Shown: positions 23,525 through 58,372 of the stretch, one piece after another
How positions within the stretch are numbered: position 1 is the stretch's first letter
Layout of the letters: each line of letters starts with the position of its first letter
Assembly (NCBI RefSeq): GCF_001046635.1
Contig: NZ_KQ130453.1
Location: forward strand, 825,772 to 889,771
From: Novosphingobium barchaimii LL02
Lineage (GTDB): Bacteria; Pseudomonadota; Alphaproteobacteria; Sphingomonadales; Sphingomonadaceae
Length of the DNA stretch: 64,000 nt
Direction of reading: 5' to 3'
Made by a program: the position numbers and the translations under genes
The notes under the pieces: generated by a model
What the model was told of the DNA's origin: nothing
Seen by the model: the letters and a program-made list of their open reading frames with translations, nothing else
The model's database searches: none

Positions 23525-23555
23525 CACAGCGACGGCGCGGCGCGGGACGGGCGGT

Positions 23556-24341: not shown

Positions 24342-24718
24342 TGCGATGCTCCCTGTGCGATGTCTTGTGCGATGGCGCAGGTCGCCATGCGATCTTGTGA
24401 AATCCGGCGCGGGGCCAGCAGGCGGGCTTCCCGTCCCCGCAGCGCCGCAAGCGCGCAGGCTTCGGCCACGCTGCCCACGCCGCGCGCTGCCAACGAAGAT
24501 TTGGACAGGGTCAGTGTCTGCAAACCGACGACCTGTTCCGGGGCAACGGCGATCACCGGCAGAAACAGCAGGTTCGCCAGTTCGGCCAGATCGTCGGCCT
24601 TGTCGGCAAAGGTCGCCAGATGGGTCACCGGCGGGGCACCCTCCCGCGCGAGTTGATACGCCGAGCACAGCGAAAAGACGCTGGCCCCCGCCCGGAACCC
24701 GAAGCCGGCAACGATCAC
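24338..24718 (-). CDS. cobE: cobalamin biosynthesis protein CobE (CbiG C-terminal-like)
   Basis: This 126-aa protein starts with GTG 24718, which overlaps the cobL stop (GTGA). The N-terminus [12 protein letters not shown] and the later [22 protein letters not shown] match the C-terminal domain of CbiG/CobE. The protein is thought to assist corrin synthesis in the aerobic route, with an uncertain role. Longer upstream starts would read antisense to normal coding bias inside cobL. It is coupled to cobM at its 3' end (ATGA). Confidence 0.88.
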
Positions 24719-28771: not shown

Positions 28772-29922
28772 CAGACGGCTCCGAAGTGAGCGATAAGGCT
28801 GTCGATATCCAGGCCCGCACGAAGCGGCGGGGCACCGGCACGCTGGCCAAGGGAAAGATCGTAAGCGCCGCGGCGTCCGGTCAGCACCACATCGGCCACG
28901 CCGGAATGGGCGCATCCCTTCGCGCAGCCGGAGACGTGAAGCCGGCCCACGACATGCGGCGCCAGCCTACGGGCCAGCATCCGCGTCTCGACGCTGGACT
29001 GCGGGCATTCAGGCATACCGGGGCAGGCGTCTACGCGCAGCAGCGGTTCGTTCGGGTCGAGAGAAAGACCGTCGAGCTGACCTGGCATCCCGCCTTCCGT
29101 CAGCAGGATGCGCCAGGGTGTGGTGCGTATTCCCGTGATACCCGGCGTCTGTGCCAGTTGGATAAGGGTCGGCGCTTTCAGCCGGCCGAAGGGCAGCCCA
29201 TAGGCCGTGCCTAGTTCGCGCTGACCGGGAGCGGGAGCGGCTTTCGGCTGCGCGGGCTGCACGCTTCCCCGGGCCCAGTCGGGCAGGGGTGCGGCATGTC
29301 GTCCCATGCGGCCTGCAGCAGCCCCGCCGCTCTTGGCGAACCAATGCGCGAGGTCGATCAGCGCCTCTACCTCAGCCCCATGCCCAAGCGGCACACCGAC
29401 CGCGCGGCCCTCTGCGCGTAGCAGGAGAACGCCCTCGCTGCCGCGCTCGATCCTGAAATCGCCGCTCTCTGCGCTCAGGGCAGGCTCAGCGCCGGCATCA
29501 ATGACGAAACCCACCTTGCCCGGCAGCGCGGGCAATTCACCTAGCCGGTCGTGAAGCGCGGCGGCGATGCGGTGGGTATCGTCGCCAGGCTTCCAGTCGG
29601 GCGAAACGAGGATGTTGCGGCGCCCTTCTCGACCACCATCTGCGTCGACAAGGCCAAGTGCCAGCAGGCGGTCCAGCAGGTCCGGCCACGCTGCTTCGGT
29701 CACGCCACGAATTTGCAGGTTGGCGCGGCGCGTAACGTCTAGCGAGCCTGATCCGTGGGCAACCGCCGCCTCGCCCAGACCGACAGCCTGCGCGGGTGTC
29801 AGGCGGCCAAGGCGCGGCTTTACGCGGACCAAAAGCCCGTCTCCCGCCATCATCGGGCGCCAGGCATCAGGGCACCAGCCCCTGACCTTGCCGCCGCTGC
29901 TGCCACCTTGCGGCGTGCTCAC
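28771..29922 (-). CDS. cobG: precorrin-3B synthase CobG
   Basis: This 383-aa haemoprotein of the nitrite/sulfite reductase fold carries the N-terminal RGWCPDAWRPMMAGDGLLVRV and the C-terminal [4Fe-4S]/ligand region CPGMPECPQSS with HVSGCAKGCAHSG. It is the oxygen-dependent monooxygenase that makes precorrin-3B, so this is the aerobic route. GTG 29922 is chosen because GGAGAG lies 5 nt upstream; the frame stays open to a GTG at 30039 that has no ribosome site. It is the first gene of cobG-H-I-J and lies about 185 nt behind the cobalamin riboswitch. Confidence 0.9.
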   Translation of the reverse strand: MSTPQGGSSGGKVRGWCPDAWRPMMAGDGLLVRVKPRLGRLTPAQAVGLGEAAVAHGSGSLDVTRRANLQIRGVTEAAWPDLLDRLLALGLVDADGGREGRRNILVSPDWKPGDDTHRIAAALHDRLGELPALPGKVGFVIDAGAEPALSAESGDFRIERGSEGVLLLRAEGRAVGVPLGHGAEVEALIDLAHWFAKSGGAAAGRMGRHAAPLPDWARGSVQPAQPKAAPAPGQRELGTAYGLPFGRLKAPTLIQLAQTPGITGIRTTPWRILLTEGGMPGQLDGLSLDPNEPLLRVDACPGMPECPQSSVETRMLARRLAPHVVGRLHVSGCAKGCAHSGVADVVLTGRRGAYDLSLGQRAGAPPLRAGLDIDSLIAHFGAV

Positions 29923-29957
29923 AGTCGCTCTCCACGCGCCGGGCGAGAAGGCTGGGC

Positions 29958-30074
29958 TTACCGACACCTCGGCCGCCGCGCACCACTGGGCAGGCGCAAA
30001 AGCACCCAACGCCACGCGGCCGTGCAGCCCCAGCCACACAGCTTCGTCGCCCAGACGGAGAAGTACCGTGCCAT
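29958..30074 (-). CDS. possible 38-codon leader ORF between the riboswitch and cobG
   Basis: ATG 30074 has AGGGG with a 6-nt spacer, a better ribosome site than most genes here, and the frame ends 35 nt before cobG. The product starts MARYFSVWATK and resembles nothing known to me. It may be a leader peptide, a coupling ORF or chance. A one-base shift joins it to the open frame that continues into cobG. Confidence 0.3.
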   Translation of the reverse strand: MARYFSVWATKLCGWGCTAAWRWVLLRLPSGARRPRCR

Positions 30075-41990: not shown

Positions 41991-42203
41991 TCAATCAACC
42001 GTCGACCCTGGTCGGTCCGCAATCTGGCGGTCGGCGACAATCGATGCGTCGATGAGGTTGCGACCGGTTTGGGCTGCAGCCTTCGCAGTCATGGTGACCG
42101 CGACGCCGTTGGGTCCGTCCAGCATGACCAGACCATCTTCGGCACTTGCGATCCCGGGGTCGGACCTGGGTTGCGGCGGATTGGGTGACGATGGTGCGGT
42201 CAT
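41991..42203 (-). CDS. small hypothetical protein coupled to the Crp-type regulator
   Basis: This 70-aa protein has a Pro-rich start and a compact core, DGLVMLDGPNGVAVTMTAKAA followed by GRNLIDASIVADRQ. Such short proteins occur in sphingomonads, but I know of no function. ATG 42203 overlaps the stop of the regulator gene (ATGA), which supports real translation. There are no membrane segments or Cys. Confidence 0.6.
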   Translation of the reverse strand: MTAPSSPNPPQPRSDPGIASAEDGLVMLDGPNGVAVTMTAKAAAQTGRNLIDASIVADRQIADRPGSTVD

Positions 42204-42949
42204 GACGGGGCTTTCGTGCTTTCGTGAAAATGTGTCTGCGTCTCGTCGATATAGAGATAGGCAGGGTCGAACTGGCCCCGCACCGCCAGCCGCTTGGGAT
42301 CGGGTATCTCAACAAGTGAGGAACGGAACACGCAAAGGCCCTCCTCGCGCAATTGCCGCAGCACGCGGTTGACGTGAATGTTGGTGAGGCCGCAGATTTC
42401 TGCAAGGTCAGTCTGGGTCAGGCCAAGCGCAAAGCGATGTCCATCGCTGAGATCTGCGGATATCAGCCTGGCGTTCGTTTCGCACAAAAAATGCGCGACG
42501 CGACCCATTGCGTCGAGCCGGCCGAGCCGGAACAGCCATGCCCGGTGGATCGCGGCATCGATTAGAGTGGAAAACCACAGCTTACGGCCAAGCTGCGGGC
42601 GCTCGGCAATGATCGCGTCCAGTTCGGCGTGCGGGATAATCGCAACGGTGGCAGCGGTCATGGTCGCCACGTCGTGGTCGAGAACCTTCAAGGGATAGGC
42701 GTGGAGATCGACGAAGTCGCCCGGTACGTGAACGGCGACCAGTTGCCTCAGCCCCTTGCGATCATCGATATAGCGCGACAGGATACCTTCGACCAGCAAC
42801 GTGCTGTGATCCAGTTCCCGCCCCGCGCGGATGACGATCTTACGCGGATCGAGCGTTTGCACTTCCGTAATCGAAGCCTCCAGCCGGGCACGCTCCTCGA
42901 GCGACAGACTGACACCTCGTTTATATCGCAGGAAGCGGTCGGTGAACAC
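42200..42949 (-). CDS. Crp/Fnr-family transcriptional regulator
   Basis: This 249-aa protein has a cyclic-nucleotide-binding-like beta roll (VIRAGRELDHSTLLVEGILSRY, VHVPGDFVDLHAYPL) and a C-terminal helix-turn-helix (LTQTDLAEICGLTNIHVNRVLRQLREEGL, about residues 175-205). The N-terminus lacks the Cys cluster of true FNR. GTG 42949 is used because AAGGAC lies 6 nt upstream. It is divergent from katE across 241 bp, so it may control that catalase gene. Confidence 0.88.
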   Translation of the reverse strand: MFTDRFLRYKRGVSLSLEERARLEASITEVQTLDPRKIVIRAGRELDHSTLLVEGILSRYIDDRKGLRQLVAVHVPGDFVDLHAYPLKVLDHDVATMTAATVAIIPHAELDAIIAERPQLGRKLWFSTLIDAAIHRAWLFRLGRLDAMGRVAHFLCETNARLISADLSDGHRFALGLTQTDLAEICGLTNIHVNRVLRQLREEGLCVFRSSLVEIPDPKRLAVRGQFDPAYLYIDETQTHFHESTKAPS

Positions 42950-43190
42950 GCATAAGTCCTTCAATGGCGGCAGGGGTAGGCTTCGATCCCGGCATAACCC
43001 TTCGCGCGCGGGCGCGTTGCACCTGCACATTCCGAAACGTGCTGATGCAGGTTAATATCCAAACCGCCTGCGCAACTGAACGATCGCGGCCTCCGTTACC
43101 GTAATACCAGCCCACCGATGCCGCCATTCGCGCGCCGTCACTGCGCCGGCCCGACGTTTCCGCATGACTTTTGACCAGAAGGAAAACCTC

Positions 43191-45413
43191 ATGGCGAAAA
43201 CGCCACCGAAATCGCGTGCACAACAATCAGCCAAGCTGAGATCGCCAGATCTTGGAGCTGCTGACATGGGCGGCGAATCTCCGCAAAAAGCAACCCCGGT
43301 CCCCGCCGAGACTGACATTTCGTTCACCTATGCCGATCCACAGGCTGCAGGCGGTGAAACCCATCAAGTCGCCGGGGGTGACATCCCGACGCTAACTACC
43401 CAGCAGGGAATTCCGGTCGCCGACGACCAGAACAGCCTAAAGCAAGGTGCACGTGGACCGACCCTGCTCGAGGACTTCCATTTTCGCGAAAAGATGTTCC
43501 ATTTCGATCACGAACGCATTCCGGAGAGGGTCGTTCATGCGCGTGGATATGGCGCCCACGGCTACTTCGAACTGACCGACAGCCTCTCCGACGTCACTCG
43601 CGCCGACGTCTTCCAGCGGGTAGGCGAACGGACACCCGCCTTCGTGCGCTTCTCCACGGTCGCGGGTTCTAAAGGGTCCGTCGATCTGGCCCGCGACGTG
43701 CGGGGCTTTGCGGTCAAGCTCTATACCCAGGAAGGCAACTGGGATCTGGTGGGAAACAATATTCCCGTGTTCTTCATCCAGGATGCGATCAAATTTCCCG
43801 ACCTCATCCACGCTGCGAAGCCGGAGCCTGATCGTGCCTTTCCGCAGGCCCAGACCGCACACGATAATTTCTGGGACTTCGTCAGCCTGACGCCTGAAGC
43901 GTTCCACATGATTATGTGGACCATGTCCGACCGCGCCCTCCCGCGTTCGTTTCGGACGATGGAAGGGTTTGGTGTTCATACGTTCCGGCTGGTCGACGCC
44001 AAGGGTAAGTCCACTTTCGTCAAGTTCCACTGGAAACCCAAGCAGGGTCTGCAATCGGTGGTGTGGAACGAGGCGGTCAAGATCAATGGCGCCGACCCGG
44101 ACTTCCATCGTCGTGACTTGTGGGACGCGATCAATGCGGGCGATTTTCCCGAATGGGATCTCGGCGTCCAGTTGTTCGACGATGCCTTCGCTGACAGCTT
44201 CGATTTCGATGTACTCGATGCGACGAAGTTGATCCCCGAGGAACTGGTGCCGATCCGCGTAGTGGGGCGCCTGGTTCTGGATCGGGTGGTCGACAATTTC
44301 TTCGCCGAGACGGAGCAGGTTGCCTTTTGCACTCAAAACGTGCCGCCGGGCATCGACTTTTCCAATGACCCGCTGTTGCAGGGTCGTAATTTCTCGTATC
44401 TCGACACTCAGATCAAGCGTCTGGGCGGGCCCAACTTCACGCATATCCCGATCAACGCGCCCAAGTGCCCCATGCACCACTTCCAGCAGGATGGGCACAT
44501 GGCGATGCACAACCCCAAGGGCCGCGTGAATTACGAGCCCAATAGCTGGGGGGCCACGCAGGGAGGCCCACGCGAGGATCCCGCGCGAGGCTTCATCAGC
44601 TTTGCGGAAGAAGCCGATGGTCCCAAGCAACGGGTGCGTTCGGAAACCTTTGCCGACCATTACAGCCAGGCGCGGCAGTTCTTCGTCAGTCAGGTCCAGA
44701 TCGAACAGAAGCACATAAGTGACGCGCTGGTGTTCGAGCTTTCGAAAGTGGAGCGTCCCGACATCCGCTCACGGACGGTTTCGCACCTGCTGCACATCGA
44801 TCCCGGCCTTGCCGCGACTGTTGCGGATGGACTGGGTATCTCATTGCCGGATGGGGCTGTCGCCGCGCGGCAGCCTATCACCGATCTTCCCGCTTCAGAT
44901 CCTCTCAGCATCGTCAAGAACGGGCCGGACAGCTTCAAGGGCCGCAAGCTTGGCATCCTACTCAGCGATGGCGCAGATGCGGCGATCTTCAAGGCGCTGG
45001 TAGCGGCAGTTGAAGCGGACGAGGCCGTCTACGAAGTCATCGCTCCCAAGATCGCCGGCGTTACCTTGTCCGATGGCACAACCGTTGCAGCAAAGCACAA
45101 GATAGATGGAGGTCCTTCCGTGCTGTTCGATGCGGTGGCGATCGTGGTCGCGAAAGAAGGTGCCGCTCTGCTTGCCCTCGACGCGCCCACGAAGGACTTC
45201 GTCGCCGACGCCTTCGCACATTGCAAGTTCATCGGCTTCACCGCAGAAGCCCGGTCGATCTTCGCCAAAGCCGGCATGACGGACGATCTCGATGAGGCAT
45301 GCCTCCTGCTGGAGGATGAGGAGGATGCGGTCATGTTCCTGGCCGCCTGCCGCCAACTGCGCCATTGGGCGCGCGAACTGGAGGTCGACCTGGATGCACG
45401 GCCCACAGCTTGA
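43191..45413 (+). CDS. katE: large-subunit catalase (HPII/KatE type)
   Basis: This 740-aa monofunctional haem catalase has the catalytic His in [19 protein letters not shown] (about residue 116), the haem Tyr region [17 protein letters not shown] and the C-terminal DJ-1/PfpI-like domain of large-subunit catalases ([20 protein letters not shown]). It removes hydrogen peroxide in the cytoplasm. ATG 43191 has AAGGA upstream; the ATG at 43164 lacks a ribosome site. It starts a string of plus-strand genes, with the glycan operon only 40 bp downstream. Confidence 0.95.
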
Positions 45414-45453: not shown

Positions 45454-46650
45454 GTGTCTCCCTTGGGTAATGGGCGGGCTAGTCAGCGAAGCTTGAAAAT
45501 TGGCATCATTGCCCACTTGCGCCATCCCATCGCCGAACCCTTTGCCGGTGGACTGGAGATGCACACCCACCTTCTCGCGCGCCTCTTGCGCGATCGTGGT
45601 CACGCGGTGACGGTTTTTGCTTCGGTTCATTCGGAGCCCGCGCTCGAACTCGAGGCGATTTGCAGCGAGACGGCGCTGGCCGGTGTGGGGACGGCCGAGG
45701 CAAGCGACATAGCCTTCTTCAAGGAACATCACGCCTATCTCAGTCTGATGACCGACCTGCGCCTCCGTGACTTCGACGTCATCCATAACAACTCGCTGCA
45801 TTACCTGCCGGTCACGCTGGCCGATACTCTGCCAATGCCGATGATCACGACCTTGCACACGCCGCCATTTTGCTGGCTGGAAAGCGGAGTTCGTCTATGC
45901 TCGGGAAAGGATCATGCCTTCGTCGCAGTTTCGCAATCGGTGGCGAAATTATGGAACCCCGTCGCGAAGGCGGACGAGGTGATCCTGAACGGCATCGACC
46001 TCCATAAATTCGCTTTCCATCCTTTGCCGGACGATGCCAGTTACCTCGTGTGGTATGGACGGATCGTCCCTGAAAAGGGGTTGCATTACGCAATCGAGGC
46101 GGCACGCAAGATAGGTCTGCCGCTGCGCATCGCTGGCCCCATTTTGGACCAGGATTATTATCGCACAAAGATCGCACCTGAACTGGGCGCCGATGCCCTC
46201 CACGTCGGTCACTTGGCGCACTCCGAACTGGCACGGCTTGTCGGCGGTGCGCGGGCATTCCTATGCACGCCGATGTGGGACGAGCCTTACGGTCTCGTCG
46301 TGGCCGAGGCGCTGGCCTGCGGCGTGCCAGTGGCGGCGTTCGCGCGCGGAGCTATTCCGGAAATCCTCGATGAAAGCTGCGGCGTACTGGCCACCCCTGA
46401 TGATGTGGCATCGCTTGCCGACGCCGGCCTCGCGGCGCTTGCTCTTGACCGGCGCGCATGTCGCAGGCGGGCAGAACGGGTCTGCGATGCAGGTCGTATG
46501 GTCGATGGCTATCAGGCGCTGTACCGCGGCATGATTGCACGCGCGAGCGGATGCGGGAGCAACCTCGTTCCCATGCAGCAAGGCGAGCCAACGCCTCCTC
46601 GCATAACTGCTTATGAATTGCCTGTCCGGAACGTGCAGCAGCATGCCTGA
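45454..46650 (+). CDS. glycosyltransferase family 4 (GT-B fold)
   Basis: This 398-aa protein starts at GTG 45454 with GAGGG 7 nt upstream. It has an N-terminal GT-B domain (LKIGIIAHLRHPIAEPFAGGLEMHTHLLA) and a nucleotide-sugar domain (YLVWYGRIVPEKGLHYAIEAA, then CTPMWDEPYGLVVAEALACGVPVAAF, with the E-x7-E motif). It probably transfers a sugar from a nucleotide donor to a lipid or glycan acceptor in the cytoplasm. It is first of seven genes joined by short overlaps, and may be partly read through from katE. Confidence 0.88.
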   Translation: MSPLGNGRASQRSLKIGIIAHLRHPIAEPFAGGLEMHTHLLARLLRDRGHAVTVFASVHSEPALELEAICSETALAGVGTAEASDIAFFKEHHAYLSLMTDLRLRDFDVIHNNSLHYLPVTLADTLPMPMITTLHTPPFCWLESGVRLCSGKDHAFVAVSQSVAKLWNPVAKADEVILNGIDLHKFAFHPLPDDASYLVWYGRIVPEKGLHYAIEAARKIGLPLRIAGPILDQDYYRTKIAPELGADALHVGHLAHSELARLVGGARAFLCTPMWDEPYGLVVAEALACGVPVAAFARGAIPEILDESCGVLATPDDVASLADAGLAALALDRRACRRRAERVCDAGRMVDGYQALYRGMIARASGCGSNLVPMQQGEPTPPRITAYELPVRNVQQHA

Positions 46651-47599
46651 AAGCGGAACCGACGACGGCAATCCGTCAGATATCGATATCTGCGTGTGCG
46701 TGCCCGCCCGCAACGAGGCTGCAAGGCTGCCGGTCCTGTTCGCGGCGCTGGCGGCACAGACCTGTCGCGGTCCGGTGCTTTTGGCGGTCGCGGTCAACAA
46801 TTCAAATGACGACAGCTTCGCAGTGATCGAGCAGGCACGGGTTCGATATGCGGGGCAATTGGTCATTCATGTCGAACAGGTGACCTTTGCACCGGAAATG
46901 GCGCACGCCGGTTCCGCACGCCGTCTGGCGATGGACACTGGCCTCGGCCTGACGCCAGCGAGCGAACGCGGGGTTTTGGTAAGCACAGATGCCGACACCC
47001 GGCCGCCCCCTGAATGGCTGGACAACATCGCTTCAGCTATCGCGCGCGGCGCGGATATCGTCGGCGGGCGGATCGAGATCGAGCCTGGCGAACCTCTGCC
47101 TGAAGGCGTGCTGCGCCTGCGCTCGGCATGGGACCGCTATTGGGAGGCAGTCCGCGCAATCGAAGATACGGAGGATCCTTTGCCGTGGGATGAAGCCCCT
47201 CGCCATGGCGATCATACCGGGGCGTCTCTCGCCATCCGGACTGTTCTCTACCAACAGTGCGGAGGGGTGCCTTTGCTGCGTACCGGGGAAGACCGTGCGC
47301 TGGTGAACGCCGCGCTGGTTCAGGGTGGCCGTCTTTCCCATCCGACGAACGTATTTACCCGTGTCTCGCCCCGCCGCGATGGCCGGGCCGAAACGGGAAT
47401 GGCAGCCGCCATGCAGGAAATGTTCGATCTGGCAGCAGCGGGCACCAGCCCGCGCGCACCTGCCCTGCATCACTGGCAGAAAAGGGCGGCGTGGCGGCGT
47501 ACCCTGCGCGCCCTGCCCGGTGGTCAAGCCATGATCGCGCAGCAAGAGCCGCTGCTGGCTCCGATGCCCCACGACATGGTGCTGGAGATCGGGACATGA
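46643..47599 (+). CDS. glycosyltransferase family 2 (GT-A fold)
   Basis: This roughly 318-aa protein opens with CVCVPARNEAARLPVLFAAL, shows the DxD-type metal site in VLVSTDADTRPPPEWL near residue 115, and a late acceptor-side region (RHGDHTGASLAIRTVLYQQCGG, GEDRALVNAA). These are GT2 marks. The start is probably ATG 46643, which overlaps the GT4 stop by 8 bp. It has no membrane helices, so it is likely a soluble, non-processive transferase. It is coupled to the next gene by ATGA. Confidence 0.82.
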   Translation: MPESGTDDGNPSDIDICVCVPARNEAARLPVLFAALAAQTCRGPVLLAVAVNNSNDDSFAVIEQARVRYAGQLVIHVEQVTFAPEMAHAGSARRLAMDTGLGLTPASERGVLVSTDADTRPPPEWLDNIASAIARGADIVGGRIEIEPGEPLPEGVLRLRSAWDRYWEAVRAIEDTEDPLPWDEAPRHGDHTGASLAIRTVLYQQCGGVPLLRTGEDRALVNAALVQGGRLSHPTNVFTRVSPRRDGRAETGMAAAMQEMFDLAAAGTSPRAPALHHWQKRAAWRRTLRALPGGQAMIAQQEPLLAPMPHDMVLEIGT

Positions 47600-48639
47600 A
47601 GCCGCGCCCGATCGGCTATTATGTGCATCATCACGGAGCGGGCCACCGCGCCCGCGCAGACGCGATTGCCAAACACATCGACTGTCGTCTCGTCCTGATC
47701 GGCACCGGGATAGGCGCGGCAGGCCTCGATCTGCCTGACGACCGCCCGCTATCGGGTCATTTTCACGGGCGGGACAATGCGCCTTGCCGTCCCTCCGCTC
47801 TTCACTACGCACCCCTGGATCACGACGGCGTGCGCGAACGGGTTGCCGTTGTGGCTTCCTGGATCGCGTCCGAAAGGCCGGCCTTGATGGTCGTGGACGT
47901 TTCCGTCGAAATAGCGATGCTGGCGCGCTTGGCATCAGTGCCTACGGTCTACGTGCGTTTGAACGGGGAGCGTAACGATAGTGCCCATCTCGAAGCGTTT
48001 CGCGGTGCCACGGGCATCCTGGCGCCATTCCACAGCGGTCTCGAAAGCGAGGCAACGCCAGCCTGGGTTCGCGCAAAGAGCCACTATTTTCCCGGCATAA
48101 CTGCCACTGCTGCAATGAAAGCGCCCGCAGTTCGCCGGGTGCTCGTAGTGTTCGGCCGGGGCGGCTTGCCCGGTGACGGCGCGCTTGTTGCCGTTGCGGC
48201 CAGCAGTTGTCCCGATTGGCAATGGCGCGTCATCGGTCCAGCGACTGAAACTGCGAGCATCCCGGAAAACCTGACGTTTGCCGGGTGGGTTAGTTCGCCT
48301 GAATGCGAAATTGCCCGCGCCACCGTCATCGTCGGCGCGGCGGGAGACGGCCTCATCGGTGCAGTGATGGGTGCCGACCGCCCCTTCTTATGTATTCCCG
48401 AGAATCGTCCGTTCGCAGAGCAACAGGTGACGGCTGAAGGGCTGCGCTCGCTGGGCGCCGCGATCGTCGTGCCGGGCTGGCCCTCGGGGAAGCAATGGCC
48501 GGCGCTGCTCGAACGGACTTTAGCCTTGCCCCCGTGGGGGCGGCGCACTCTGCAGGATGCGGATGGTGCGCGAAAGGCCGCGGCATGGCTGGCCGCCCAG
48601 GCATTCCAAGCCTCGATTTGTCCGGAACATGCCCCATGA
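47596..48639 (+). CDS. GT-B glycosyltransferase (MurG/UGT-like)
   Basis: This 347-aa protein starts MKPRPIGYYVHHHGAGHRARADAIA, the glycine-rich HGxGHxxR opening of MurG/UGT-like enzymes. The later VLVVFGRGGLPGDG, LTFAGWVSS and GAAGDGLIGAVMGADRPFLCIPENRPFAEQQ form the nucleotide-sugar-binding C-domain. ATG 47596 overlaps the GT2 stop (ATGA). It is the third transferase of the operon, so the product should have at least three sugar linkages, or the enzymes act in sequence on one carrier. Confidence 0.8.
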   Translation: MKPRPIGYYVHHHGAGHRARADAIAKHIDCRLVLIGTGIGAAGLDLPDDRPLSGHFHGRDNAPCRPSALHYAPLDHDGVRERVAVVASWIASERPALMVVDVSVEIAMLARLASVPTVYVRLNGERNDSAHLEAFRGATGILAPFHSGLESEATPAWVRAKSHYFPGITATAAMKAPAVRRVLVVFGRGGLPGDGALVAVAASSCPDWQWRVIGPATETASIPENLTFAGWVSSPECEIARATVIVGAAGDGLIGAVMGADRPFLCIPENRPFAEQQVTAEGLRSLGAAIVVPGWPSGKQWPALLERTLALPPWGRRTLQDADGARKAAAWLAAQAFQASICPEHAP

Positions 48640-49766
48640 CACTCTGGGCGCCTGGAAAAAAAGATGCCGAAGGCCCGGTAGAACGGGCGTCGGCCATAGC
48701 TCCGCGGCTGGTGGACCTTGGCGCACGCTACGATGCCGCCCCGGTCTTTCCCGTCGAAAGCATCCGCTGCCTGGCGTCGGCGAGACTGCACCGCGACTTT
48801 GCGCCCCCGGCGAGCGGGGGCCTGCACTTTGCGCATCCGGCGGACCGTAACCTTGTGCTTATGGACGTGCTGCGCATCGTCGGACGGGCAGACCTCAGTC
48901 TTGGGCGGCTCTACGAAGGCCACGTCAATGCGCTCGCCCTGTTTGACTGGTACGGATCGCCGGCCCAGCACGCGCGACTGGCTCGCGACTTGGAACACGG
49001 AGCGTTCTACGGTGTATGGGCCACAGAACCGCAGCCAGGGGTTTCCATCGAACTCAGAGCGGACGGTTCGCGCATACTCAAAGGCGGCAAATCATTCGCG
49101 AGCGGAGCCGGGGGTCTCGCTTATGCAATCGTCACGGCGCAACACTGCGCTGACGAGCGGCACCTGGTGATTGTGCCGGCAGACGAACCGGCACGGGCGG
49201 ATGTCTCGCAATGGCGTGTGCGAGGAATGCGGGCGACCACCAGCGGGCTCTACGATCTCACGGGGCTTGTGATACAGGCAGCGGACCTGGTCGGCATAGC
49301 AGGCGATTATGATCGCGACCCTCGCTTCACCACGGGAGCATGGCGCTTCACCGCCGTGCAACTTGGGGGCATCGAAGCATTGCTAACCGAAACGCGGCTG
49401 GCCATGTCCGAAAGCGCACGCGAAGATCCCTTGCAGCGCGCCAAGTTCGCGGACGGCGTGGCGGCCATGCGTACCGCATACCTTTGGGTGCGTGAATGTG
49501 CATTGCGCGCCGCACGAGACGACGGGGATGGCCCGGCTTTCGCCCGAATGACGCGCGGAATCGTCGAGCATGCCGCACTTAAGGTGATGGAACTGGCAGC
49601 ACGGATCGTCGGGACTCGTAGCGCCATGGATGGCGAGCGCATCGACAAGATTACCCGCGATCTTTCGCTTTATCTACGGCAGGCGGGGCCGGATCATGCC
49701 CGTGACCAAGCAGCTCTCGCATGGCTTGATCACGATGCATGGGGCAGTGGAGACGCATTATGGTAG
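48636..49766 (+). CDS. acyl-CoA dehydrogenase-fold flavoprotein in the glycan operon
   Basis: This 376-aa protein has an ACAD-like helical N-domain (RIVGRADLSLGRLYEGHVNAL), a beta middle domain (FYGVWATEP, SFASGAGGLAYAIVTA) and a C-terminal helical bundle ending in RIDKITRDLSLYLRQAGPDHARD. That ending resembles the RD-x-x-x-x-x-x-H type seen in ACAD-fold flavin monooxygenases (DszC, HpaB and nitrososynthase group) more than the catalytic Glu segment of dehydrogenases. It overlaps the transferase stop (ATGA) and the deacetylase start. Either dehydrogenation of an acyl chain or N-oxidation of an amino sugar is possible. Confidence 0.7.
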   Translation: MTLWAPGKKDAEGPVERASAIAPRLVDLGARYDAAPVFPVESIRCLASARLHRDFAPPASGGLHFAHPADRNLVLMDVLRIVGRADLSLGRLYEGHVNALALFDWYGSPAQHARLARDLEHGAFYGVWATEPQPGVSIELRADGSRILKGGKSFASGAGGLAYAIVTAQHCADERHLVIVPADEPARADVSQWRVRGMRATTSGLYDLTGLVIQAADLVGIAGDYDRDPRFTTGAWRFTAVQLGGIEALLTETRLAMSESAREDPLQRAKFADGVAAMRTAYLWVRECALRAARDDGDGPAFARMTRGIVEHAALKVMELAARIVGTRSAMDGERIDKITRDLSLYLRQAGPDHARDQAALAWLDHDAWGSGDALW

Positions 49767-50440
49767 ATACCCTACTGTCGGCTCATCCGTGGCGGCATTT
49801 GCGCTGGCTCGTCCTGGCGCCACATCCAGATGACGAAACCCTGGGCGCAGGCGCGCTCATCGCGCAAGCGGCGGCTTATGGCCGACTTGCCGGCGTCGTC
49901 TACCTGACGGACGGTTCGGGCTCCCACGGCGACGATTGCCCCCCTGCGTGCAACCTGGTTTCCATGCGCAAGCGCGAGGCTGCGCACGCCATGTTCCGCC
50001 TTACCGGTAGCCGATCTTGCGGTCCTGTGCATCTGGGCTGGAAGGATGCCGCCCCCGCTGCGCCTGAAACTACAGCCTTCCTGGCCACGACCCGAAAGGT
50101 AGCCGCACTTTGCAATCGCCTCAAAGTCGACGCCATCGCTGTCACCGCCCTACATGAGCCGCATTGCGACCATGTCGCTGCCGCTATGCTCGCTTATGCT
50201 GTGCACGCCATGGCCAAGCGCTCCATCCTCGTCGCGGAATACGTGGTGTGGGCTGCTGCGCCCGAGCGACGGACGTGTCGTGTTCTGCGAACGGAGACAA
50301 TGCTGCCCGGTACACGCCGTCACGCCTTGCGCGCCCATCGCAGCCAACTGACCGCCTCGTACGGTCCAGGATTCCGGCTCGCCATCGCTCAACAGCGAAT
50401 GCCTGATCGCGATACGCTGTTCTTGCGGAGATCAAGATGA
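49760..50440 (+). CDS. PIG-L/LmbE family N-deacetylase
   Basis: This 226-aa protein carries the zinc site APHPDDETLGAGALIAQA near residue 20 and a second His motif in HEPHCDHVAAAMLAYA near residue 135. The family removes N-acetyl groups from GlcNAc-containing glycolipids or small molecules. ATG 49760 overlaps the flavoprotein stop by 7 bp, and its own stop overlaps the methyltransferase start (ATGA). In the operon it would expose a free amine on a sugar for the next enzyme. Confidence 0.88.
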   Translation: MVDTLLSAHPWRHLRWLVLAPHPDDETLGAGALIAQAAAYGRLAGVVYLTDGSGSHGDDCPPACNLVSMRKREAAHAMFRLTGSRSCGPVHLGWKDAAPAAPETTAFLATTRKVAALCNRLKVDAIAVTALHEPHCDHVAAAMLAYAVHAMAKRSILVAEYVVWAAAPERRTCRVLRTETMLPGTRRHALRAHRSQLTASYGPGFRLAIAQQRMPDRDTLFLRRSR

Positions 50441-51030
50441 CCCGTACCGAATCCAGCCTTGCACCCGATTATTTTGAAAGCATGTTTTTGAGCGACGAAG
50501 ACCCATGGAATCTGGAAAGTAGCGCGTACGAGCAGGCCAAATACGATCATACTATCCATGCTCTCGCCGGCCGGACTTACGCCCACGGCTTCGAGGTCGG
50601 TTGCGCCAAAGGCGTCTTGACCCGCAAATTAGCGCCCTGTTGCGATACGCTTTTTGCGATCGATGTCAGCGGTGTAGCTCTGAAGGCTGCGAGACAGCGT
50701 TGCACGCCGTTTGCGCATGTATCCTTCGCCAATATGATATTTCCGGAACAGACGCCGGATCATGTATTCGATCTCATCGTCCTGTCTGAGGTCGTCTATT
50801 ATTGGTCGGATCGCGACATCAGGCGGGCCGGCGAGTGGATTTACCAGCATCTCTTGCCGGGCGGCGACCTGCTGCTGGTGCACTGGACCGGCGAAACCGA
50901 TTACCCGCAAACCGGCGACGACGCCGTAGCCAAGCTGCACGACGCGCTGACGGCAAAAGCGGGCTTGATCACCGCGCAGCGACGCGAGCACTACCGGCTC
51001 GACTTATGGCGGCGATGCACATGCGCTTGA
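50437..51030 (+). CDS. NodS-like class I SAM-dependent methyltransferase
   Basis: This 197-aa methyltransferase begins with DPWNLESSAYEQAKYDHTIHAL, an N-terminal block typical of the NodS family, then motif I GFEVGCAKGVLTRKLAP near residue 55 and LIVLSEVVYYWSD. NodS of rhizobia N-methylates the free amine of the deacetylated Nod-factor backbone. Here the gene directly follows a PIG-L deacetylase, so methylation of the exposed sugar amine is a reasonable guess. It is coupled upstream by ATGA and overlaps the last GT gene by 10 bp. Confidence 0.85.
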   Translation: MTRTESSLAPDYFESMFLSDEDPWNLESSAYEQAKYDHTIHALAGRTYAHGFEVGCAKGVLTRKLAPCCDTLFAIDVSGVALKAARQRCTPFAHVSFANMIFPEQTPDHVFDLIVLSEVVYYWSDRDIRRAGEWIYQHLLPGGDLLLVHWTGETDYPQTGDDAVAKLHDALTAKAGLITAQRREHYRLDLWRRCTCA

Positions 51031-51857
51031 GCGTCCTGACCATAGTGAAGGACCGTCCAGGCCACCTCGCGCAGCTCATCGAAGGATTGGGCCGCAGTGG
51101 GATCATGCCGGACGAATTGATCGTCGTCGACATGGGGAGCGAACCACCGGTGGCGGTAGGGCAATTGCCTTTCCCGGGGCGCGTGGTTCGCATGGGCTGC
51201 GCAGGACTCCCCCTCGCGGCTGCCCGAAACGCTGCCGCCCGCGCTGCCAGCGGGGACACATTGCTGTTTCTCGATGTAGATTGCATTCCCACGCGCGGGT
51301 TGGTGGGGGCATATCGAGCTGTGCTCGCCGCCCAGGATGCCTTGGTCTGCGCGCAGGTTCTATACCTTGGCCCCGAGGACGCACGTGGAAACTGGGACGA
51401 GGCCGAACTGATCAAAAGCGCCGTCAGCCATCCGGCTCGTAGGTTTCCATCGGCAGGGGTTCGCGCTGAAGAAAATCCGGGGCTATTCTGGTCGCTGGTA
51501 TTCGGTATCTCTACCAAGCGCTTCTTCGAATTCGGTGGATTCGACGAAGAATTCGAAGGCTATGGTGCAGAAGATACCGATTTCGGGTTCCGATGCAAGG
51601 CGGGCGGGCTGCCTTTGCTGTTCATGAGCGGGCCCGGTGCGTTTCATCAACACCATGCGACATTCGACCCTCCGATCCAGCATCTTGCCGATATCGTCCG
51701 TAATGCCAGTACTTTTCATCGCAAGTGGGGGATCTGGCCGATGGAGGGCTGGCTGGCGGCATTTGCGGAAATGGGACTCATCGCATGGAGCGCGAACGCC
51801 ATTTTCCTGCTGCGGTCCGCCACCAGCGAAGAAATGACGCTGGCGCGCGTCTATTGA
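51021..51857 (+). CDS. glycosyltransferase family 2 (last gene of the glycan operon)
   Basis: This 278-aa GT-A protein opens with RLSVLTIVKDRPGHLAQLIEGL, has the DxD-type LLFLDVDCIPTRGLVGAY near residue 90, and the C-terminal galactosyl/GalNAc-type block FFEFGGFDEEFEGYGAEDTDFGFRC (the ED acceptor/catalytic motif). It is soluble, with no membrane helix. ATG 51021 overlaps the methyltransferase stop by 10 bp; ATGs at 51007 and 51015 are alternatives. It ends the seven-gene run. Confidence 0.83.
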   Translation: MRLSVLTIVKDRPGHLAQLIEGLGRSGIMPDELIVVDMGSEPPVAVGQLPFPGRVVRMGCAGLPLAAARNAAARAASGDTLLFLDVDCIPTRGLVGAYRAVLAAQDALVCAQVLYLGPEDARGNWDEAELIKSAVSHPARRFPSAGVRAEENPGLFWSLVFGISTKRFFEFGGFDEEFEGYGAEDTDFGFRCKAGGLPLLFMSGPGAFHQHHATFDPPIQHLADIVRNASTFHRKWGIWPMEGWLAAFAEMGLIAWSANAIFLLRSATSEEMTLARVY

Positions 51858-51927: not shown

Positions 51928-52380
51928 TCAGCGTTGCATCGAATGCTTGATGTCGCGCATCTCGTCATGCCCAGCCTTTACCGAGCCGTAGCAAGTTTCG
52001 ATCAACTGAAGGACTTCGGGGGAAAGCGCGCGATCGGCCAGCGCATCCTCGTACTTTGCCTTGATATGGTCTTCGCCGGCCTCGACCTCGTCGATGATTG
52101 CCTTATCGTCCTGGCCGGTCACGGCGGATTTAAGGTTCAGGAACATGCGGTGCGCCCCGGCGAGAACAGTTCCATCGTCCTCCGCCTTGCCACCTAGCCG
52201 GGTGACTTCCTGCTGCAAGCGCGAGGCGACTTCGCGCCTTTCGCTGGCTCGGCTCGTGAACAGCGACCCGAAACGACCGCTTTGGCTGTCCTTGGCCGCT
52301 TCGGTATACCCATCGACGCTGTCGATGGTGGTGGCGATCAGACCGTTGAGCGTAGAAATATCGTGGCTGGTGTCGGACAT
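51928..52380 (-). CDS. PA2169-like four-helix-bundle protein (DUF2383)
   Basis: This 150-aa helical protein has the DUF2383 pattern ISTLNGLIATTIDSVDGYTEAAK at the start and SRASERREVASRLQQEV, GHDEMRDIKH later. It is ferritin-like in fold, without an obvious metal site. ATG 52380 has AGGA 6 nt upstream. The family is common in stress regulons of proteobacteria and its role is unknown. It converges on the glycan operon with a 70-bp gap. Confidence 0.85.
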   Translation of the reverse strand: MSDTSHDISTLNGLIATTIDSVDGYTEAAKDSQSGRFGSLFTSRASERREVASRLQQEVTRLGGKAEDDGTVLAGAHRMFLNLKSAVTGQDDKAIIDEVEAGEDHIKAKYEDALADRALSPEVLQLIETCYGSVKAGHDEMRDIKHSMQR

Positions 52381-52804
52381 TGTCATTCCTGTCAAAAAGA
52401 GACGGTTAGCAACCCGAGTAATGATTTCCGGGATAAGGCATAAACGACGCTCACCGGCAAAAGCCCCCGCAAATGGCCAATACTAACTTGGATCAGTCCG
52501 ATTTTCGGGAAAAGGCTGTGAGAGGGGCACAAGGACCCCATCAGGATCGAAGGGGCCGGCAGCATCCATGGGCTATCTGGTCGCTCGTCTGGCGCCAGGC
52601 ACCACTGGTGCCATTTGTGCTCAGATGGCGGGAAGTTCCCATACTTGCCGCCTGGCATTAGGTGCATTGCTGATTTTCGCCGCTTTTTTAGGTGGCGTGC
52701 CTTCAGGAACGCAATCCATCGTTTCCTGAGGTTGGCGGGCGCGTTGTTTGCGGAGACGGGCGCGCCCGCTTACTTTCTCGGTACTCCTCGTACGTCGCAT
52801 CATG

Positions 52805-53339: not shown

Positions 53340-55661
53340 ATGGTACGCTTGCCGTTTTACCGAGACCTTGAGTTTGGGCGCGAGGTCGCGGATGTTCATT
53401 CCATCTTCGAAGCCGGTGCCGCGAAACCCCAAAAACGCATGCGCATCGCACTGATCGGGAACTTTGCACCTCGCAAATGCGGCATCGCCACGTTTACCAC
53501 CGATGTGTTCGAGAAGCTTTCCCAATTCCATCCGGAAATCGCAGTTGACGTCTATGCCTTGGACGATCCGGAATGTCCCCTCTTCTACGAGAACATTGCA
53601 GACACGATCGCTCGAAGCGATCCTGAGGATTACGCCCGAGCCGCCCGCCGGATCAACGAGGACGGAGTGGACGCAGTCTGGCTCCAGCATGAGTACGGCA
53701 TTTTCGGCGGCATTGACGGCGAAATGGTCGTCCAGTTCGTCGATCGACTGGCGGCGCCGCTTGTGCTGACCCTTCACACGGTGCTGGGCGAGCCTTCCGA
53801 GCGTCAGCGTAGCATCTTGCGCCATCTTGTGACCCGCGCCTCTCGAATCATGGTGATGTCGCATCATTCGCGAAACCTGCTCGAAAGCTCGTACGGCGCA
53901 CCTAGTGACATCCTGAAAGTCATCGACCACGGCGCGCCGGACCGGCCCTTCGGTCGGCAGGACGAGTTCAAGGCGAGGCTGGGGCTATCCGGTCGCAAGG
54001 TGCTCATGACATTCGGCCTCCTCGGACCCGGCAAAGGGCTCGAGCACGCCATCCGTTCGCTCCCGGCGATAGTGGAACGACATCCACAGGTGCTATATCG
54101 TATTGTCGGCGCCACCCATCCAAACCTCGTGGCCGAGGAAGGCGAGGCCTATCGTGAAAAGCTCATGGTGCTCGCCGCGAGGCTTGGAGTTGCTGATCAT
54201 GTTGTGTGGGACAACCGTTTCCTCGACACGCCAGAGCTGCTTGACCAGCTGGAAGCCTGCGACATCTACCTCACGCCCTATCCGGGGCTGGAACAATCGG
54301 CATCCGGTACTCTGAGCTATGCAGTGGCACTGGGCAAGGCGGTTGTATCGACACCCTATGTCCACGCGCGCGAACTGCTTGCCCAAGACGTTGGCCGGCT
54401 GATCCCGCCACGCTCCAGCGAGGCCATCGCCGAAGCCGTAAATTCCCTGCTTGACGCGCCCGAGGCGATGGCCGCCATGCAGCGGCGCGCCTATGGTCGT
54501 GGGCGCACGACAATCTGGCCGCGCTTTGCCGAAGCCTCCGCGCGCCTCGTCGCCCAAGCCGTGGCGCCCAAGAGCACCACGCAGCCGGTCACCACTACGC
54601 CCGGCCTGGCGGCGGTGCTGGCGATGAGCGATGCGACCGGCATGCTCCAGCATTCGATCGGCGTCGTTCCTGACCGCCGTCATGGCTATTGCCTCGACGA
54701 CAACGCCCGCGCGCTCATGCTCATGAACGTGGCGCAGGGCCTGTCTACGGCCGAACGGATGAAGTGGACGCTGGCCTACGCTGCCTTCGTGCAGTCCGCT
54801 TGGAATCCCGACCTCGGCCGTTTTCGTAACTTCATGCGGTTCGACCGCAGCTGGTGCGAGGACGAGGGGTCCGAGGACTCAAATGGCCGCGCGGTATGGG
54901 CGCTGGGAGAAACACATGCACGCGCCTCCGATGCCGGCGTCGCGGACTGGGCGCTTCACCTCTACGACGACGTGACCAGGTCGATGGCGACGCTGGAGTC
55001 GCCTAGAGCGATCGCCTTTGCCATGCTTGGGGCCTGTGCTGTGCTGCGCCGCGATCCGGGGCATCAGGGCTCCCGCCAGACTGCCTCGCGGGGCGGCGAC
55101 ATCCTCATGCGGCTTCTCGGCGAAGGACGACGGCCCGGCTGGGCATGGTTCGAGGCCGTGCTGGGCTATGACAACCCGCGCCTGCCACAGGCACTGATCG
55201 AGGCCGGTACCCTGCTGGGGCAGGAACACTGGACCGCAGCCGGCCTGGAAACACTGGAATGGATATGCGCGCAGCAGGTCTCGGCGAAAGGCCAGTTCCG
55301 CCCGATCGGTTCGGAGAGTTTCCATATGGAGCTTCGCTATCTGCCCTTCGACCAGCAGCCCTTGGAAGCGCAGGCGGCGATCGAGGCTGCGGGATCTGCA
55401 TTGCGTGCAACCGGCAATCCATTCTGGCACGACCACGCGATGACCGCATGGCGCTGGTTCTTTGGTGAAAATGACCGCGGAGCCGTCTTAGCGGATATCG
55501 CGACGGGCCGTTGCCGGGATGGTGTGACCCCGCGCGGCGCCAACGCCAACTGCGGGGCTGAATCGTTACTGGCCTTTCAGTTGTCGCATTATGCGCTTAT
55601 GGAGATGCTCCCTCAATCCGCTCCCCTTTCGCGGGAAGGAGGAATGCTTGAACCGGCCTGA
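53340..55661 (+). CDS. large GT4 glycosyltransferase with a C-terminal helical domain
   Basis: This 773-aa protein has two parts. Residues about 35-415 form a GT-B/GT4 transferase (RIALIGNFAPRKCGIATFTTDV, WLQHEYGIFGG, MTFGLLGPGKGLEHAIRSLP, PYPGLEQSASGTLSYAVALGKAVV). Residues about 430-760 form a second domain rich in helices, with GVVPDRRHGYCLDDNARALMLM, FRNFMRFDRSW, EDSNGRAVWALGETHARA and RGANANCGAESLLAFQLSHYA, resembling an alpha/alpha-toroid carbohydrate domain. It overlaps the GH130 gene by 14 bp. The pair may build and trim, or phosphorolyse, a mannose-containing glycan. Confidence 0.82.
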   Translation: MVRLPFYRDLEFGREVADVHSIFEAGAAKPQKRMRIALIGNFAPRKCGIATFTTDVFEKLSQFHPEIAVDVYALDDPECPLFYENIADTIARSDPEDYARAARRINEDGVDAVWLQHEYGIFGGIDGEMVVQFVDRLAAPLVLTLHTVLGEPSERQRSILRHLVTRASRIMVMSHHSRNLLESSYGAPSDILKVIDHGAPDRPFGRQDEFKARLGLSGRKVLMTFGLLGPGKGLEHAIRSLPAIVERHPQVLYRIVGATHPNLVAEEGEAYREKLMVLAARLGVADHVVWDNRFLDTPELLDQLEACDIYLTPYPGLEQSASGTLSYAVALGKAVVSTPYVHARELLAQDVGRLIPPRSSEAIAEAVNSLLDAPEAMAAMQRRAYGRGRTTIWPRFAEASARLVAQAVAPKSTTQPVTTTPGLAAVLAMSDATGMLQHSIGVVPDRRHGYCLDDNARALMLMNVAQGLSTAERMKWTLAYAAFVQSAWNPDLGRFRNFMRFDRSWCEDEGSEDSNGRAVWALGETHARASDAGVADWALHLYDDVTRSMATLESPRAIAFAMLGACAVLRRDPGHQGSRQTASRGGDILMRLLGEGRRPGWAWFEAVLGYDNPRLPQALIEAGTLLGQEHWTAAGLETLEWICAQQVSAKGQFRPIGSESFHMELRYLPFDQQPLEAQAAIEAAGSALRATGNPFWHDHAMTAWRWFFGENDRGAVLADIATGRCRDGVTPRGANANCGAESLLAFQLSHYALMEMLPQSAPLSREGGMLEPA

Positions 55662-56958
55662 GAACGTGTGGTCTGAGCCGCTTCGTATTTTCGAGACGCG
55701 CTTGCACGCCGACCCGGCGCGCGTAGTCATTCGCCCCTTTCATCTCGGATGGCAGGCGAAGAATGCGCCTGGCGGCCGGGCGTTGGCATTGGTGGAGGAC
55801 ATCACCGCGCTTACCGAGGAACGCGCCGCGTTGGAGTATGAGCGTGTGCTGCGCGATTTCAAGGAGCGTCACTGGCAGACAGAGACAATCTTCGCATGTC
55901 GCTTCGGCGAGGTGGCGAACAATCTAGGCCTGGAACCGGCGCAGTTCTCGCAAACAAAGCAACGACTGATCGGCTCGTACTTCTGCCACGAATACACCTT
56001 CGCCGCTGCGGCGCTCATGAATCCGTCGATCGTGCCTTCGCCCGACCAGACGGGACTGGATGGTCGCTGCGTGCGCTTCATCATGAGCCTGCGCGCCGTC
56101 GGCGAAGGCCATATCAGCTCTATTGCCTTTCGCGAGGGCATCGCCGAATGCAACGGCGACTTCCAGCTCTGGCCACAGGCCGCCTTCGCGACATCGGTGG
56201 AACTGGACGAGGAAGACCAGTTCGATGCCGATTGCTCAGTATCGGTCCACCGCCATGCGGAATCGAGCCTGTCCAACACTGTGATCTTTCCCATTACCGA
56301 ACAGCAGCGCGGCGGACTGGAGGATTTGCGTCTGGTGCGCTTCGACCATGGCGGCGGTGATTTCGAGTGGATCGGCACCTACACCGCCTATTCCGGCAGT
56401 TCGATCCGGTCTGAACTTCTGCGCACCCGTGATTTCCAGCGTTTCGACCTCGAACCGATCCGAGGTGCGGCAGGGCGTAACAAGGGAATGGCATTGTTCC
56501 CCGAGAAAATCGGCGGGCAATTCGCCATGGTTGGACGGCAGGACGGCAAGAACCTGTTCCTGCTTAAATCAGATACGATAGATACCTGGGACGACGAAGG
56601 AGTCCTGTTGATGGAGCCCAGATATCCTTGGGAATTCATCCAGATCGGCAATTGCGGAAGTCCGATCCCAGTCGACGAAGGCTGGCTGATGTTCACGCAC
56701 GGGGTCGGTGCAATGCGCAAATACGCCCTTGGCTGTGCGCTGCTCGACCGCGCCGATCCCAGCAAGGTGCTTGCCCGTACGCCGGAGCCAGTACTGACGG
56801 CGGAGAATGCGGACCGTTCGGGTTATGTGCCCAATGTTATATACACTTGTGGCGCGCTCAAGGTCGAAGATCGGCTGCTGATCCCTTATGGCATATCAGA
56901 CAGCACGGTAGGATTTGCGACCTGCACCATCGATGCGCTTCTCGCCATGATGGAATAA
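55648..56958 (+). CDS. GH130-family mannoside phosphorylase/hydrolase-like protein (TTG start)
   Basis: This 436-aa five-bladed-propeller type protein starts at TTG 55648, which has AAGGAGG with a 7-nt spacer; any ATG further down would cut into the fold. Family features are GLEDLRLVRF near residue 225 (the E-D-x-R acid motif), RNKGMALFPEKIGGQFAMVGRQDG and IQIGNCGSPIPVDEGWLMFTHGVG. GH130 enzymes phosphorolyse or hydrolyse beta-1,2- or beta-1,4-mannosides. Translational overlap with the GT4 gene indicates joint action on one glycan. Confidence 0.82.
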   Translation: MNRPENVWSEPLRIFETRLHADPARVVIRPFHLGWQAKNAPGGRALALVEDITALTEERAALEYERVLRDFKERHWQTETIFACRFGEVANNLGLEPAQFSQTKQRLIGSYFCHEYTFAAAALMNPSIVPSPDQTGLDGRCVRFIMSLRAVGEGHISSIAFREGIAECNGDFQLWPQAAFATSVELDEEDQFDADCSVSVHRHAESSLSNTVIFPITEQQRGGLEDLRLVRFDHGGGDFEWIGTYTAYSGSSIRSELLRTRDFQRFDLEPIRGAAGRNKGMALFPEKIGGQFAMVGRQDGKNLFLLKSDTIDTWDDEGVLLMEPRYPWEFIQIGNCGSPIPVDEGWLMFTHGVGAMRKYALGCALLDRADPSKVLARTPEPVLTAENADRSGYVPNVIYTCGALKVEDRLLIPYGISDSTVGFATCTIDALLAMME

Positions 56959-57250: not shown

Positions 57251-58372
57251 ATGAGGGGTCACCACGGAAAATTGTACGGCGCGGTAGCTTTGGCTGCGCT
57301 GATCGCCGGGACGGCGCAGGCACAGGAAGCGCCCGTCGCCAACGGCGCAGAAGGCACCGCCAGCGACATCGTCGTTACCGGGACGCGTATCAAGCGCCCG
57401 GACCTTGCCAGTAACAGCCCGCAGACGATCGTCGGCGCCGAAGAATTCCGCTACCAGGGCGCAACTTCGGTGGAGCAGGTGCTCAACCGCCTGCCGCAGT
57501 TCACCGCCGACGCCAACGAGAACGTCTCCAACGGGTCGGACGGCACCTCCAAGATCAACTTGCGCAACCTCGGATCCAACCGTGTCCTGACGCTGATCGA
57601 TGGCCAGCGCATGATGCCTTCCCAAGCGATCAACCTTAGCTTCCTGCCCAGCAGCCTGATCGAGCGCGTTGACGTGATGTCGGGCGGTGCCTCGGCGGTC
57701 TACGGTTCCGACGCGCTTTCCGGCGTCGTCAACTTCGTGCTGAAGAAGGACCTCGACGGCCTGCGCGTCGACATGCAGACCGGCTTCGCCCAGCATGACA
57801 ACAACAATGGCGCCATGCGCGACCTGCTGAGCGCCAAGGGCTACGAACTGGCTCCATCGTCGGTCGCCGATGGCGGCAAGCAGGACATCACCGTATCGGC
57901 GGGAAAGAACTTCGCAGACGGCCGCGGCAACATCACCGTTTACGGCGGCTACCGCAGCTTCAGCCCGGTCCGCCAGTCCACCCGCGACGTGTCCTCGTGC
58001 GCGCTGCAGGACCAGAATGAGGGCACCGAACTGTTCTGCGGCGGTTCGAGCAACTCGCCCTTCGGCTCGTTCGTGCCCCTTTCCGACAAGTCCGCTTTCC
58101 AAGGCCAGACGCTGGTCAACAACCGCAGCGGCGACGGCACGCTGGTGCCTTACGACAATTCCTACGCCTACAACTACGCGCCCGACAGCTACTTCCAGCG
58201 TTCGGACGAGCGCATTACCGCGGGCGGTTTCGCGCACTTTGAATTCAGCAAGGCAGCCGAAGCATACGGCAGCTTCATGTACATGAACGACAAGACCTTC
58301 TCGCAGGTCGCCCCTTCCGCGATCTGGCTGGGTACCGCGTTCCCGATCTCTTGCAACCACCCCTATGTGTAG
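57251..58372 (+). pseudogene. TonB-dependent receptor, truncated by the transposon
   Basis: The frame encodes a signal peptide (GAVALAALIAGTAQAQE), the TonB box region SDIVVTGTRIKRPDLAS and a full plug (VEQVLNRLPQFTAD, NLRNLGSNRVLTLIDGQRM, VDVMSGGASAVYGSDALSGVVNFVLKK), then the first barrel strands. It stops after about 372 residues, whereas such receptors usually have 900 or more. The last host bases are CTATG (58363-58367), and the next bases TGTAG, the transposon end, create the stop. ATG 57251 has AGGGAG upstream. The 292-bp upstream gap holds its promoter and a GTATAC palindrome near 57183. Confidence 0.92.

Follow-up and report, generated by a model that had tools for sequence, protein, structure and literature searches.

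A seven-gene operon at positions 45,454-51,857 of a 64,000-nucleotide stretch of Novosphingobium barchaimii LL02 (contig NZ_KQ130453.1, positions 825,772-889,771 of the forward strand; hereafter the window) carries a gene module that is real and widespread. It is best read as an uncharacterised, stress-associated pathway whose product is an amino-sugar glycoside, N-methylated and possibly oxidised, and the probability of this mechanism in its broad form is put at roughly 0.5. Searches of an open-access paper library returned no description of the module, in keeping with an earlier, sequence-only reading of this DNA, which knew of no characterised pathway with such a gene set. That reading had also described seven overlapping genes at this place, and all seven reading frames are indeed open and on the same strand, with overlaps of 8, 4, 4, 7, 4 and 10 bp at the six junctions when the starts are fitted to annotated relatives (ATG at 46643, 49760 and 51021); longer alternative starts would extend the first junction to 38 bp and the last to 25 bp.

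All seven genes lie on the plus strand, and their families agree with those first proposed, that of the third by predicted fold only. The operon opens with a GT4 glycosyltransferase with a GTG start (45454-46650; Glycos_transf_1, 1.7e-20), a relative of which is similarly placed in other seven-gene loci, followed by a GT2 glycosyltransferase, here GT2a (46643-47599; Pfam, 2.2e-7; longest open frame from 46613), which is the usual companion of the core, and by a GT1-like glycosyltransferase of predicted GT-B fold (47596-48639). The next three genes encode a monooxygenase-like flavoprotein with a predicted acyl-CoA dehydrogenase (ACAD) fold (48636-49766; Acyl-CoA_dh_1, 2.4e-6), a PIG-L/LmbE-type de-N-acetylase with its metal-site residues intact (49760-50440; PIG-L, 3.4e-18) and a NodS-family S-adenosylmethionine (SAM)-dependent methyltransferase (50437-51030; PF05401, 4.8e-22). 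A second GT2 glycosyltransferase, GT2b (51021-51857; Pfam, 1.8e-10; alternative start at 51006), closes the operon and is likewise present in seven-gene loci.

A scan with an ACAD profile of one genome per species returned 417 relatives, and the best 80 were kept, a selection that biases the set toward sphingomonads. The grouping of the seven genes is not a product of chance, because all seven are found in 50 of these 80 loci by a loose count (its models were built from stop-to-stop frames and give some spurious overlaps, such as PIG-L matches inside ACAD frames), and ACAD, PIG-L and methyltransferase genes occur together in 77, a figure that comes from models of annotated proteins, as do the remaining hidden Markov model counts except the 18 of 20 given below. 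The three misses are a contig that ends inside the ACAD gene (L083), an ACAD gene alone (L086) and a locus with the ACAD gene split over two frames and no PIG-L detected (L079). A GT2a-type gene is present in 76 of the best 80 loci and a catalase in 34; the nearest relative of the window among the fetched loci is that of Novosphingobium sp. ST904, with 80% nucleotide identity over 4.3 kb. A second form of the module (L062-L085) holds the ACAD, PIG-L and methyltransferase genes, in most cases with a GT2 gene on the opposite strand; such four-gene cores carry fewer glycosyltransferases, and GT4 is absent from most. The core was found on records of Deinococcus, Nostoc, Streptomyces, Methylobacterium, Sulfitobacter, Bradyrhizobium, Komagataeibacter, Jiella and Acinetobacter (proteins of loci L004-L007 contributed to the building of the search models). 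Instead of PIG-L, Rubrobacter has a CE4 polysaccharide deacetylase, and in Deinococcus radiodurans a helicase gene lies between the deacetylase and the methyltransferase. A model search of two further loci found no PIG-L in that of Cupriavidus and neither ACAD nor PIG-L in that of Paraburkholderia. Of 299 evenly sampled Pseudomonadota genomes, used for the distribution and pairing counts, 20 have the ACAD protein at E 1e-20, and by the stop-to-stop models, with the spurious overlaps already mentioned, the methyltransferase adjoins it in 18; of the other two, L126 has just PIG-L and L136 nothing but distant ACAD paralogues.

The strongest support for deacetylation followed by N-methylation, as in the NodB/NodS scheme that the sequence-only reading had invoked, comes from the pairing of deacetylase and methyltransferase genes. 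The genome-neighbourhood survey of the NodS-like protein that it had proposed was run on the same sample, in which 38 NodS-family places occur in 33 of the 299 genomes, with 10 to 21 kb read around each. ACAD and PIG-L genes accompany the methyltransferase at 19 places (at one, L181, with a weak PIG-L of 35 bits), a single open frame with methyltransferase and CE4 domains is seen at 8, and a separate CE4 gene at 6, four of them of the nod type; at L185 and L186 the nearby CE4 scores only 50 and 44 bits, with a stronger CE4 6-8 kb away. An ACAD gene without a detected deacetylase is found at 3 places, and neither was detected in the stretch at the remaining 2. Thus a PIG-L or CE4 gene lies in the stretch at 33 of 38 places, two unrelated deacetylase folds alternating as partners of one methyltransferase family. 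In the rhizobial Nod pathway, N-acetylglucosamine (GlcNAc) is de-N-acetylated and the freed amine then N-methylated, N-methylation being observed only after deacetylation (PMC5080398). The recurrent pairing upholds this part of the comparison, and the deacetylate-then-N-methylate step, taken by itself, is modestly probable.

The methyltransferase itself, on the other hand, is not NodS. NodS is its best named relative (match to structure 3ofj at 6.9e-21) and the gathering cut-off of PF05401 is passed (79.2 versus 24 bits); this family is promiscuous and alone is a weak label, because 6 of 14 control genomes contain matches above its cut-off. The NodS equivalog model NF041650 requires 300 bits, and at 88.8 bits the protein falls far short. 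A tree of 68 methyltransferase rows was built (without L185 and L186, which were too short, and L126, which has no methyltransferase); it is unrooted, with a midpoint root for drawing only, and its bootstrap is not fully settled. The nine NodS rows from nod operons form one clade (100/99), which is sister (98/93) to a clade of ten rows from proteins that carry the NCBI product name trifunctional glycosyltransferase/class I SAM-dependent methyltransferase/polysaccharide deacetylase. The methyltransferase of the window lies outside the nodS clade, in a separate ten-row set of the seven-gene type (97/97), although seven-gene loci as a whole do not group in one clade: L123, with all seven genes in a different arrangement, sits among four-gene rows. 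The operon and the nod system share methyltransferases of one wider family; the operon differs in that it has PIG-L in place of CE4, adds a flavoprotein and further glycosyltransferases, and lacks NodA, NodC and NodU among its seven genes; the absence of the first two had been pointed out at the outset. The trifunctional proteins share with it the combination of GT2, NodS-family methyltransferase and sugar deacetylase, here in separate genes, and differ in using CE4, in holding everything in one polypeptide and in that the stretches read showed no ACAD gene. A NodS-family methyltransferase and CE4 are joined in one chain at L116:8498-11407, L177:4408-7410 and L192-L199, rhizobial genomes included, and Pfam shows a GT2 domain in the first.

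The deacetylase is a firm member of its family (66.8 bits versus the PIG-L cut-off of 28.2). Residues H29, D31, D32 and H145 (numbering from 49739) are invariant in eight relatives, and this HPDD motif with a second histidine is taken to be the metal site. Among its solved relatives are diacetylchitobiose deacetylase, TT1542 and, from bacillithiol synthesis, the GlcNAc-malate deacetylase, the first and last of which act on GlcNAc compounds, so that from these relatives and from the gene pairing it probably acts on an N-acetylated sugar. As bacillithiol and mycothiol deacetylases are both among the solved relatives, as GT4 and PIG-L together recall BshA/BshB and MshA/MshB, and as a catalase gene is the neighbour, the operon might instead make an N-methylated low-molecular-weight thiol or redox cofactor akin to mycothiol or bacillithiol. 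The model scores lead to the rejection of this explanation: the deacetylase reaches 42.1 of the 182.5 bits required for BshB1 (TIGR04001), 21.5 of 195.25 for TIGR04000 and 19 of 224.35 for MshB (TIGR03445), and the scores for BshA (35.1/273.7) and MshA (28.5/462.5) are also far under their cut-offs. Most four-gene cores lack GT4, and no cysteine-adding ligase is found among the seven genes. A thiol product is accordingly very improbable, and a deacetylase of the mycothiol/bacillithiol type, which had been named in advance as the result that would overturn the amino-sugar scheme, was not what emerged. Side observations at two loci concern a second PIG-L gene by the module (L130:12473-13036 and L131:7110-7676); both stretches also hold TreY and GlgX.

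The flavoprotein had been described as having an ACAD fold, and this fold stands, while the dehydrogenase chemistry that the name implies is less likely than a monooxygenase type. In a profile search of PDB sequences DszC, TdsC and MsuC rank first, followed by acyl-CoA dehydrogenases, and TdsC is the best Foldseek match of the predicted model (predicted local distance difference test, pLDDT, 86.2); the fold comparison is nearly tied, at Z 36.2 and 2.5 Å over 349 residues for TdsC versus Z 35.0 for ACADSB. The catalytic glutamate of the dehydrogenases is absent in nine module rows at both the MCAD-type and the IVD-type position, where these positions are presumed ones, located through a single ACAD-like row (L041). 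An acyl-CoA dehydrogenase is thus made unlikely by the nearest sequences and the missing glutamate. DszC/TdsC, MsuC and SfnB are the closest solved sequences and folds, at a distance: identity by fold alignment is 19-21%, and the equivalog cut-offs of SfnB (55.2/430.9 bits) and DszC (41.6/850) are not reached. KijD3, which is presumably an amino-sugar oxygenase, shares the ACAD fold and appears at ranks 24 and 32 of the Foldseek matches, and one of its entries holds flavin mononucleotide (FMN) together with a deoxythymidine diphosphate (dTDP)-amino-sugar, which sets a precedent for amino sugars in this kind of fold; it is a weaker match than DszC (19% identity), and no nucleotide-sugar genes are found among the seven. 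That the flavoprotein of the operon oxidises the amine is speculative and on the whole unlikely. Two side observations on this protein come from other loci. A true SfnB gene (528 bits) lies directly 5' of a module-type ACAD gene at L120:9027-11585, with an SfnG-like gene before it by eye, and in D. radiodurans (L005:8543-9742) about 400 residues are fused ahead of the ACAD domain, which look glycosidase-like by eye; searches of Pfam, NCBIfam and PDB sequences turned up nothing significant for them.

Fold matches of this kind also raise the possibility that a small, unrelated acceptor such as an amino acid or polyketide-like amine is the substrate of both methyltransferase and flavoprotein, with PIG-L taking off a protective acyl group and the glycosyltransferases decorating the finished compound. 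KijD3, XiaF and ColB1, all taken to be natural-product tailoring enzymes, are among the ACAD-fold matches, teicoplanin-type deacetylases are among the PIG-L relatives, and the predicted GT-B fold of the third gene (no Pfam match; pLDDT 88.9) is closest to antibiotic glycosyltransferases, its best matches being macrolide glycosyltransferases and CalG3/CalG1. Such a secondary metabolite is nevertheless quite unlikely, as the methyltransferase belongs to the NodS family and has partners from two alternating sugar-deacetylase folds, and no polyketide synthase, non-ribosomal peptide synthetase or carrier-protein gene is present among the seven genes or the annotated features of L001-L007 (an incomplete annotation).

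Four glycosyltransferases in one operon could also mean that a surface polysaccharide or glycolipid is tailored, its sugars built up on a lipid on the inner side of the membrane and exported by machinery encoded elsewhere, with the N-methyl group as a decoration. In the same direction, GT2b scores on the MftF, EpsD and HfsG models, in each case under the cut-off, and the trifunctional relative in Rhizobium leguminosarum adjoins an epimerase, more glycosyltransferases and an ABC transporter gene. Against this, none of the seven proteins, both GT2 enzymes included, has a clear membrane segment (the highest 19-residue hydropathy mean is 1.75), Pfam and NCBIfam give no exporter, flippase, polymerase or initiating-transferase match among the seven, and glycosyltransferases are fewer in the four-gene cores. 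Tailoring of a surface glycan is therefore rather unlikely. An N-methylated amino-sugar glycan or glycolipid had been proposed as the product, and of this the N-methylated amino sugar is retained on the strength of the gene pairing, while there is no particular sign of a secreted glycan, as membrane segments and exporter families are not seen in the seven proteins.

A role in stress, which the sequence-only reading had not noticed, is suggested by the surroundings of the module. At least one of KatE, OtsA/B, TreY/GlgX, Ku, LigD and the four-helix families is encoded in 12 of 22 ACAD-module stretches versus 1 of 16 other NodS-family stretches (Fisher p = 0.002), a test that is biased because the marker list was partly drawn from module loci and the stretches compared add up to unequal lengths (about 420 versus 263 kb). 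In the sole non-module stretch with a marker, L187, the methyltransferase groups with module rows in the tree. TreY, GlgX and trehalose-phosphatase are confirmed above their model cut-offs, and the OtsA-like protein is below its own (433.7/564.85). The stress role is considered about as likely as the deacetylate-then-N-methylate step.

In the window, the gene before the operon encodes an HPII-type KatE catalase (43164-45413, plus strand; Pfam Catalase, 3.4e-181; HPII model 933.8 bits, below the cut-off of 1102), the true start of which is perhaps near 43191 (MAKTP) by comparison with relatives. Its stop lies 40 bp 5' of the GT4 start, and a Crp/Fnr-family regulator (42200-43030, minus strand; FnrL, FixK and Fnr models matched below their cut-offs) is divergent from it, so the transcription unit may begin one gene earlier, with KatE, and comprise eight genes. 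The same divergent arrangement of a related regulator gene and the catalase occurs in 22 fetched loci. A candidate Crp/Fnr box, TGA-N6-TTA, was located at 43043-43054 (plus strand) from an alignment of four loci; it is present in 17 of the 22 regulator/catalase regions, versus 1.6 expected from mononucleotide shuffles, and absent from the other 5, counts that are not independent and are suggestive only because the loci are kin. This box fits the operon better than an EcfG-type general stress promoter, which is rejected here: GGAAC-N15-18-GTT occurs six times in the window versus 5.2 expected, and the strict form ending in CGTT was not found before the catalase of the window and precedes none of 23 catalase-first, 1 of 37 GT4-first and 2 of 71 other module loci (sets that hold some places twice; the hits at L094 and L123 are one place). 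Between 42900 and 53400, sigma-70 promoters are not above the shuffled level (2 versus 2.8), and none of the 14 terminator-like sites (9.4 in shuffles) is clearly placed.

The pathway that we infer, from its substrates and the order of its steps to the oxidation, the co-expression and the stress role, would be cytoplasmic and probably co-induced with KatE, and would build and then tailor an amino-sugar glycoside. GT2a would place an N-acetylhexosamine onto an acceptor, PIG-L would remove the acetyl group and the NodS-family enzyme would N-methylate the freed amine; the ACAD-fold flavoprotein, as a putative FMN-dependent monooxygenase, may oxidise the amine or a site next to it. Further sugars would be attached in sphingomonads by GT4, the GT1-like GT-B enzyme and GT2b, and the product would aid survival under oxidative or drying stress.

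On the other side of the operon, a convergent gene (51928-52395, minus strand) encodes a PA2169-family four-helix-bundle protein (TIGR02284, 133.2 versus 44.8 bits); seven of the 80 scan loci (L024, L025, L027, L028, L030, L044 and L054), and L003 too, have a member of this family close to the operon. Farther downstream, a GT4-type protein of 773 residues and a GH130 (mannoside phosphorylase-type) protein are encoded at 53340-56958 (plus strand); a GH130 gene is near the module in one relative as well (L080). By eye, a TonB-dependent-receptor-like frame at 57251-58372 (plus strand) ends at 373 residues, which is short and possibly reflects an interruption, and the translated frames at 22772-30039 (minus strand) resemble a run of cobalamin-biosynthesis genes.

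Taken at its widest, the module could represent an undescribed class of stress metabolites, cytoplasmic N-methylated and oxidised amino-sugar glycosides, made by a portable four-gene unit in at least four phyla, with Nod-factor chemistry drawn later from an older, non-symbiotic family; this is a tentative and somewhat doubtful proposal, and the unrooted tree is silent on the direction of descent between the module and the Nod family. If it is true, the sugar chemistry considered typical of rhizobial plant signals would be one branch of a wider bacterial toolkit tied to oxidative and drying survival, with copies in D. radiodurans, sphingomonads, a cyanobacterium and actinobacteria. It would also imply an unseen metabolite open to a direct mass-spectrometric search in genetically tractable laboratory strains.

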